Below, piece by piece: positions 30,688-31,501 of a stretch of DNA of 60,332 bases. The position numbers and the translations under genes are program-made. This stretch comes from Thioalbus denitrificans (lineage in GTDB: Bacteria > Pseudomonadota > Gammaproteobacteria > DSM-26407), in NCBI RefSeq assembly GCF_003337735.1, contig NZ_QPJY01000004.1:146658-206989 (forward strand), read 5' to 3'. The notes below the pieces were generated by a model. The model searched no databases. It had not been told where the DNA came from and saw only the letters and a list, made by a program, of their open reading frames with translations. The first letter of the stretch is position 1, and every line of letters begins with the position of its first letter.

Positions 30688-30789
30688 GCGGTTCTGCGAA
30701 CGCACAGGGCATGCCTCATCCTGGGGCGCCGACATGATGCAGGGCACCAAAACCATGCGTGAGGATTCCCGCCAGGACGACACAAGGAT

Positions 30790-30830
30790 TTGATTAATAT
30801 CAATTAATGTAATTGGCATAACTCCTGCAA
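30790..30830 (+). promoter_or_regulatory. FNR-like palindrome plus sigma-54-type promoter before a candidate sRNA
   Basis: TTGATTAATATCAA (30790-30803) is a perfect FNR/Anr-type palindrome (TTGAT-N4-ATCAA). Immediately downstream, TTGGCATAACTCCTGCA (30813-30829) has GG and GC exactly ten bases apart, matching the sigma-54 -24/-12 pattern seen also at 25893. Both models predict a start near 30838-30841. The surroundings are strikingly AT-rich compared with the flanking genes. Confidence 0.55.
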
Positions 30831-30839
30831 TAACTACAG

Positions 30840-30926
30840 TGCGTGTGGCCCGCCCCACCGCATCCTCCACGGTGCCACGCGTCTTTCCCCTGATATTCGG
30901 GGTGCCCGCGGGCACCCCGTTTTTTA
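30840..30926 (+). ncRNA. candidate small RNA (~87 nt) with anti-Shine-Dalgarno hairpin loop
   Basis: Between the inferred start (about 30840) and a strong terminator, the transcript has no open frame of note. It can fold into an outer stem, CGTGTGG (30842-30848) with CCACGCG (30875-30881, one G-T pair), and an inner hairpin, CACCG (30856-30860) with CGGTG (30870-30874), whose nine-base loop CATCCTCCA exposes CCTCC, complementary to the Shine-Dalgarno sequence. A single-stranded CU-rich linker leads to the terminator. Structure, promoter and terminator together suggest a regulatory RNA that masks ribosome binding sites. Start point and function are inferred. Confidence 0.5.
30898..30926 (+). 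terminator. rho-independent terminator of the candidate sRNA
   Basis: CGGGGTGCCC and GGGCACCCCG (30898-30907, 30910-30919) form a perfect 10-bp stem followed by seven T residues. It is 210 bp beyond the RND stop codon, so it could also end read-through transcripts of that operon. Confidence 0.9.
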
Positions 30927-31111
30927 TTCGGACACCCTCATCCTACCCCCCATGTGGGTTATTCACCCCGGCTCCCGCTGTGTTAGGGTGGTTTGGAATG
31001 ATTCCAGATTGCCCGACGGCCAGCGGCCTAGCGTAACGCGCGCCCCGGGAAGTCGATGCGGGAGGGGGCCGATGACACTCCTCCCGGACCGCACCAGGAG
31101 ATATGACGGCC

Positions 31112-31501
31112 ATGTCCACGCAGCACACCGAACAGGAGCGCCTGCGCCTCGCCCAGCGCACCATCGACGCCCTGGAGGACTGGCGCATCGCCCCCGAATT
31201 GCAGATCGAGCTCATGGGGCTGCCCGAAAACACCCGGCCGCGGGCGCTGAAGCGCTACCGCGACGGCATGCAGGCCCTGCCCGATGACCCGGACGTGCTG
31301 GAGCGGGCCCGCCACATCATCGGCATCAACGAGTCGCTGGTCCGTATCCACCCCATGAACCACCGTGCCGGCTTCCTGTGGCTGAACAACCGCAGCAAGT
31401 ACTTTCCCGAGGAACCGCCGCTCGAGGTGATGTGCAAGGAGGGACTCACCGGACTGCACCGGGTCTGGGCCAACCTGGACTGCACCATCGACTGGGATTG
31501 A
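31112..31501 (+). CDS. MbcA/ParS/Xre antitoxin C-terminal-like protein (orphan)
   Basis: A 129-residue soluble protein. The C-terminal part (HRAGFLWLNNRSKYFPEEPPLEVMCKEGLTGLHRVWANLDCTIDWD) follows the DUF2384 pattern of Xre/MbcA/ParS antitoxins, which bind RES-family toxins. The N-terminal part (RLRLAQRTIDALEDWRIAPELQIELMGL...RALKRYRDGMQALP) would correspond to the helix-turn-helix/dimer region. No RES toxin or other partner gene is adjacent, so this is an orphan. ATG 31112 is 11 bases from AGGAG; ATG 31103 is only two bases away and is less likely. Confidence 0.7.
   Translation: MSTQHTEQERLRLAQRTIDALEDWRIAPELQIELMGLPENTRPRALKRYRDGMQALPDDPDVLERARHIIGINESLVRIHPMNHRAGFLWLNNRSKYFPEEPPLEVMCKEGLTGLHRVWANLDCTIDWD

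Follow-up and report, generated by a model that had tools for sequence, protein, structure and literature searches.

A candidate sigma-54-dependent small RNA with an exposed anti-Shine-Dalgarno segment in Thioalbus denitrificans, and similar units in other Gammaproteobacteria

A compact RNA unit downstream of an RND efflux gene

The window analysed here, a 60,332-nucleotide stretch of the Thioalbus denitrificans genome, contains a compact unit downstream of, and on the same strand as, a gene for an RND efflux protein (PF00873), whose parts are listed in Table 1. Conservation was assessed against one close relative, a congener (G001), in which the unit occupies the corresponding locus, flanked by the RND gene and an open reading frame of 132 amino acids. 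This reading frame, on the 3′ side of the unit (window 31103-31501, plus strand), is 93% identical at the DNA level in the congener, and a Pfam search returned no match for it.

Table 1. Features of the RNA unit and of the DNA preceding it (window coordinates).
Feature	Position	Strand	Remarks
NtrC-like upstream activator site GCACCAAAACCATGC	30744-30758		One mismatch to GCAC-N7-GTGC; about -82; congener GCACCAGAACCATGC
Perfect match to IHF consensus, WATCAANNNNTTR (minus-strand sequence AATCAAATCCTTG)	30783-30795	-	Kept in congener with a different N4
FNR-like palindrome TTGATTAATATCAA (TTGAT-TAAT-ATCAA)	30790-30803		Overlaps the predicted IHF site; one defined base lost in congener
Predicted sigma-54 -24/-12 promoter TTGGCATAACTCCTGCA	30813-30829	+	Congener TTGGCACGACTCCTGCT; TGGCAY-N6-TGCW common to the group
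Predicted small RNA, about 86 nt	30840-30925	+	83/86 identical in congener; about 80% in flanking intergenic DNA
5′ hairpin with C-rich loop	30841-30882	+	Fold prediction
Loop segment CATCCTCCA, unpaired, containing the anti-Shine-Dalgarno CCTCC	30861-30869	+	Unpaired probability 1.0; invariant in congener
CU-rich linker CTTTCCCCTGATATT, predicted single-stranded; second possible pairing site	30883-30897	+	Fold prediction; linker best-kept part elsewhere
Intrinsic terminator, hairpin and T6 run	30898-30925	+	Fold prediction and terminator scan

The initial annotation had proposed a small RNA gene at this position, and every element on which it drew, namely the palindrome, the GG-N10-GC element, the hairpin and the terminator, is found in the sequence. 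At the rate at which the flanking DNA has changed, so few differences in the RNA body would be expected with a probability of only 4.7e-6. One of the three differences between the two species is a one-base indel in a C-run, which argues against a conserved reading frame.

The fold of positions 30838-30928 has a predicted energy of -39.8 kcal/mol, as compared with a mean of -27.9 kcal/mol for shuffled sequences (z = -4.0; none of 200 shuffles was as good). In the minimum-energy structure the 5′ hairpin bears a 17-nucleotide loop closed through CCG/CGG. The two-tier hairpin described in the initial annotation, with CATCCTCCA as its loop, lies about 2.5 kcal/mol above this minimum and is thus an alternative to the preferred fold. 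Its principal feature nonetheless stands, as CCUCC is unpaired in both structures. The strong terminator that had been noted is likewise clear in both scan and fold: the stem-loop CGGGGTGCC-CGCG-GGCACCCCG (30898-30919) runs directly into the T6 stretch, and the scan finds two overlapping terminator-like sites at the unit against 0.3 expected.

The strength of this terminator, together with its position downstream of the RND gene and on the same strand, is what would be expected if the element did no more than terminate the efflux-pump operon, its promoter-like and palindromic motifs being due to chance. However, the hairpin and linker (30840-30897; 57 of 58 positions identical in the congener) are conserved at least as well as the terminator itself (26 of 28), and the combination of sigma-54 promoter, hairpin and terminator recurs at many other loci, which makes this explanation very improbable. 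The conservation in the congener and the recurrence of the architecture in 22 or more families together support the original proposal, and it is almost certain that a gene for a small regulatory RNA, about 86 bases in length, lies here.

Promoter and upstream sites

The promoter element TTGGCATAACTCCTGCA contains GG-N10-GC, a spacing that is conserved in relatives, and its -12 C at position 30828 predicts a start at 30840. Three positions differ in the congener, all of them compatible with the consensus, to which TTGGCACGACTCCTGCT is the closer of the two sequences. The sigma-54 promoter of the initial annotation is therefore upheld, since its consensus is matched in both species and recurs across the group described below. 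A start near 30840 had, in addition, been predicted by either promoter model, and here only the sigma-54 half of the claim holds: the scan finds a sigma-70-like -10 element (TACAGT), but in the congener it reads TACGGT and is not kept. Judged by its sequence, the gene is almost certainly switched on by sigma-54, a stress sigma factor.

Upstream of the -24 element, the TTGAT half of a perfect IHF consensus coincides with the left arm of the FNR-like palindrome. The site WATCAANNNNTTR lies between the -24 element and the putative enhancer, as in an IHF-assisted sigma-54 promoter, and is perfect in both species. In the 140 bases preceding the promoters of group members, eight perfect IHF consensus sequences occur against 0.17 expected. 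Minus-strand IHF sites at -41 to -44 number five and come from both congeneric species and three genomes from other families, and L119 has one further site at -43; predicted sites in the same place and orientation are found at L018, L041, L042 and L119.

These data bear directly on the suggestion of low-oxygen induction through FNR (or a relative) bound at TTGATTAATATCAA, with transcription from a sigma-54 or sigma-70 start at about 30840. The palindrome is indeed perfect, loses only one defined base in the congener, and stands near a class-II distance; moreover, in cmscan the FNR-induced AniS RNA of Neisseria weakly matches the unit in its 3′ part (17.8 bits; gathering threshold 50). Yet across the group TTGATNNNNATCAA is confined to the genus, with one mismatch in the congener, except for a single match elsewhere (L028), again with one mismatch, while the same bases also fit IHF, whose consensus turns up there in unrelated families as well. 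The sigma-70 -10 element is not conserved, and FNR is not known as a sigma-54 activator. Control by FNR is thus unlikely, and the low-oxygen reading of the initial annotation finds little support, although the palindrome on which it was based is present. A predicted IHF binding site is the better interpretation of the supposed FNR site, so that an FNR-like palindrome before a sigma-54 promoter can be a site for IHF.

The consensus for NtrC is GCAC-N7-GTGC. At this locus, GCACCAAAACCATGC has one mismatch and a weak second half, and the congener retains it as GCACCAGAACCATGC with the same mismatch. Perfect sites are enriched in the group, with six against 0.03 expected in a first set and four against 0.13 in a second. 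They lie at -80 to -119, almost exclusively with a gap of seven, and in a general search for upstream dyads GCAC-N7-GTGC was the sole dyad of interest. They are nevertheless restricted to part of the group, most members lacking a perfect site. The T. denitrificans genome encodes NtrC (760 bits; curated cut-off 559), on another contig than the small RNA, as well as Hfq. A motif search recognised no gene for an enhancer-binding protein within 1.5-2 kb on either side of group members.

Since the genome encodes about 20 proteins with an activator domain, an activator other than NtrC may serve this promoter. The same sigma-54- and IHF-dependent anti-Shine-Dalgarno RNA could then answer to, for example, a regulator of carbon, metal or envelope functions, a version that is quite conceivable given the imperfect site at this locus and the missing perfect sites in many group members. 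Against it stand the gap-specific enrichment of GCAC-N7-GTGC at enhancer distances and the conserved near-match at -82, and on the sequence evidence nitrogen limitation acting through NtrC is a likelier signal than low oxygen.

Similar units in other genomes

A DNA similarity search found nothing for the unit beyond the genus, and covariance models were therefore used. The first (R1), built from the two sequences of this genus, gave weak matches in six other genomes. In five of these, a full sigma-54 promoter is followed after about 11-13 nucleotides by a short RNA and a terminator, the RNA usually having a hairpin at its 5′ end and a stretch rich in C and U; the sixth (L011) is without this architecture. 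The second model (R2), built from seven sequences, extended the group to 39 sites in 37 genomes of 22 families, and many weaker matches were dropped as terminator-only or lacking a promoter. In at least 22 families of Gammaproteobacteria, the covariance search named by the initial annotation thus recovers one architecture: a sigma-54 promoter, then a 5′ hairpin, unpaired CU-rich sequence and a terminator, with a median RNA length of 82 nucleotides.

Because both models include the promoter, the group was tested independently by exact matching of a pattern (TGGCAYN6TGCW, 30-60 nt, CCTCCY, 23-53 nt, T6). This pattern occurs in 29 of 369 genomes, whereas its reversed version, the control, occurs in 2 of 369. 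In a sample of the phylum, the pattern occurs in 2 of 299 genomes, T. denitrificans included, against none of 299 with a scrambled promoter, a comparison that is weak by itself; the group seems to be concentrated in certain orders. Among the matches listed from a further scan, of genome contigs, a hairpin directly precedes the T-run at 44 of the 80 loci examined, against 87 of 1328 T6 runs at the same loci. Hosts among the matches listed are Methylotenera, Methylophilales, Methylobacter, Acidithiobacillus, Thioalkalivibrio, Sideroxydans and Desulfosarcina, and cultured hosts of the group include Methylophilus, Methylobacter and Acidithiobacillus. In the more distant hosts, the units may have arisen independently.

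Within lineages the CU-rich linker is best kept and the stems vary, with some two-sided changes; such changes are also apparent by eye between L028 and L218. CCTCC is the commonest pentamer in the RNA bodies (24 of 39 members, where 5.6 are expected and 1000 shuffles gave at most 13), an enrichment that is partly by construction, because the pentamer is present in the R2 training sequences and required by the scanned patterns. Where present, it has a mean unpaired probability of 0.89, compared with 0.57 for pentamers in general.

Several further loci were noted. The T. denitrificans genome contains another candidate of this kind (L219; G000:C2:150098-150199), which is intergenic and combines a sigma-54 promoter, CCTCC and a terminator; no counterpart was found in the incomplete assembly of the congener. 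At L037 (G179:C121, about 2001-2290), two tandem small RNA copies each have their own sigma-54 promoter. At L184 (G000:C1:709000-717500), where six or more paralogous porin-like genes lie in tandem, terminator-only R2 matches occur about every 1.2 kb and resemble the terminator of the small RNA. Similar units of sigma-54 promoter, CCTCC and terminator occur in records from Deltaproteobacteria, Acidobacteria-like organisms, Treponema and Planctomycetales (L057-L136).

It is tempting to regard these units as one widespread, unnamed class of sigma-54-driven anti-Shine-Dalgarno RNAs across Pseudomonadota and possibly beyond, with fast-changing stems and a fixed CCUCC-type seed, which would form a common post-transcriptional arm of the NtrC/IHF response to nitrogen starvation and lower the translation of selected mRNAs. 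This generalisation is advanced tentatively, as one about as apt to fail as to hold. With a sigma-54/IHF/(NtrC) unit for CCUCC-bearing RNAs recurring in at least 22 gammaproteobacterial families, many bacteria would possess an overlooked translational layer in their response to nitrogen limitation or starvation.

Proposed function and comparison with known systems

For the locus itself, the reading preferred here, to which a probability of roughly 0.7 is assigned, is a sigma-54- and IHF-dependent small RNA that occludes Shine-Dalgarno sequences and has NtrC as its likeliest activator. Sigma-54 polymerase would transcribe a stand-alone gene from TTGGCATAACTCCTGCA to the terminator, and IHF, by bending the DNA at its predicted site, would allow an enhancer-binding protein bound upstream to reach the polymerase. 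With NtrC at about -82 in this role, the RNA would rise under nitrogen limitation. The 86-nucleotide transcript would then offer CCUCC in the loop of the 5′ hairpin, together with the C-rich linker that precedes its terminator. CCUCC, perhaps with the CUUUCCCC linker, would base-pair with the purine-rich Shine-Dalgarno regions in its target mRNAs, probably assisted by Hfq, so that translation initiation is blocked. By analogy with S17 and NfeR1 (see below), the RNA probably blocks the translation start of other messages. Searching the genome with a start-codon pattern yielded 31 possible targets, as compared with five for the reversed control; since Shine-Dalgarno sequences are enriched in any case, no target is claimed from these numbers.

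Among 4227 Rfam families, none scored above its gathering threshold at this locus, nor was there a threshold match at 38 other loci with group members or candidates. In the open-licence literature, sigma-54-dependent small RNAs and anti-Shine-Dalgarno small RNAs are each known, and none was found that combines both features; the group is apparently undescribed. CrcZ, Qrr and GlmY/GlmZ are sigma-54-dependent small RNAs, and they differ in motifs, targets and activators and give no Rfam match here. AniS (RF02274), which is FNR-dependent, is also a small RNA, and its weak 3′ likeness arises from the C-rich stretch and terminator; its score remains far below threshold, and the FNR site is not supported as such at this locus.

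Closest in its control is NrsZ from Pseudomonas, a processed RNA of 226 nucleotides that depends on NtrB/C and RpoN, carries the motif ACAGGCAG, activates rhlA and adjoins ntrC (PMC8395346, PMC9308961). The present RNA shares with it a sigma-54 promoter, probable activation by NtrC and a presumed action in trans, but is shorter, has a CCUCC motif, does not adjoin ntrC, and its sequence lacks ACAGGCAG.

With respect to mode of action, Bordetella S17 has unpaired CU-rich sites, and these have been demonstrated to mask ribosome-binding sites (PMC5688073, PMC11722255). Both S17 and the betaproteobacterial "toxic sRNA" family (RF02278; ncS27/bdhR1) resemble the present unit as short double-hairpin RNAs with unpaired CU-rich sites. 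However, S17 is transcribed from a sigma-A promoter, and with the RF02278 model the present RNA reaches only 13.8 bits (gathering threshold 50). The rhizobial alpha-r14/NfeR1 RNAs similarly expose anti-Shine-Dalgarno motifs, CCUCCUCCC, in unpaired regions and take part in the nitrogen stress response, and for NfeR1 pairing of the motif with Shine-Dalgarno sequences was demonstrated experimentally (PMC10746234). NfeR1 has three hairpins, is activated by LsrB and repressed by NtrC, and is without a sigma-54 signature (PMC10746234). The T. denitrificans RNA resembles alpha-r14/NfeR1 in its unpaired anti-Shine-Dalgarno motif, and differs from them in its predicted sigma-54 promoter.
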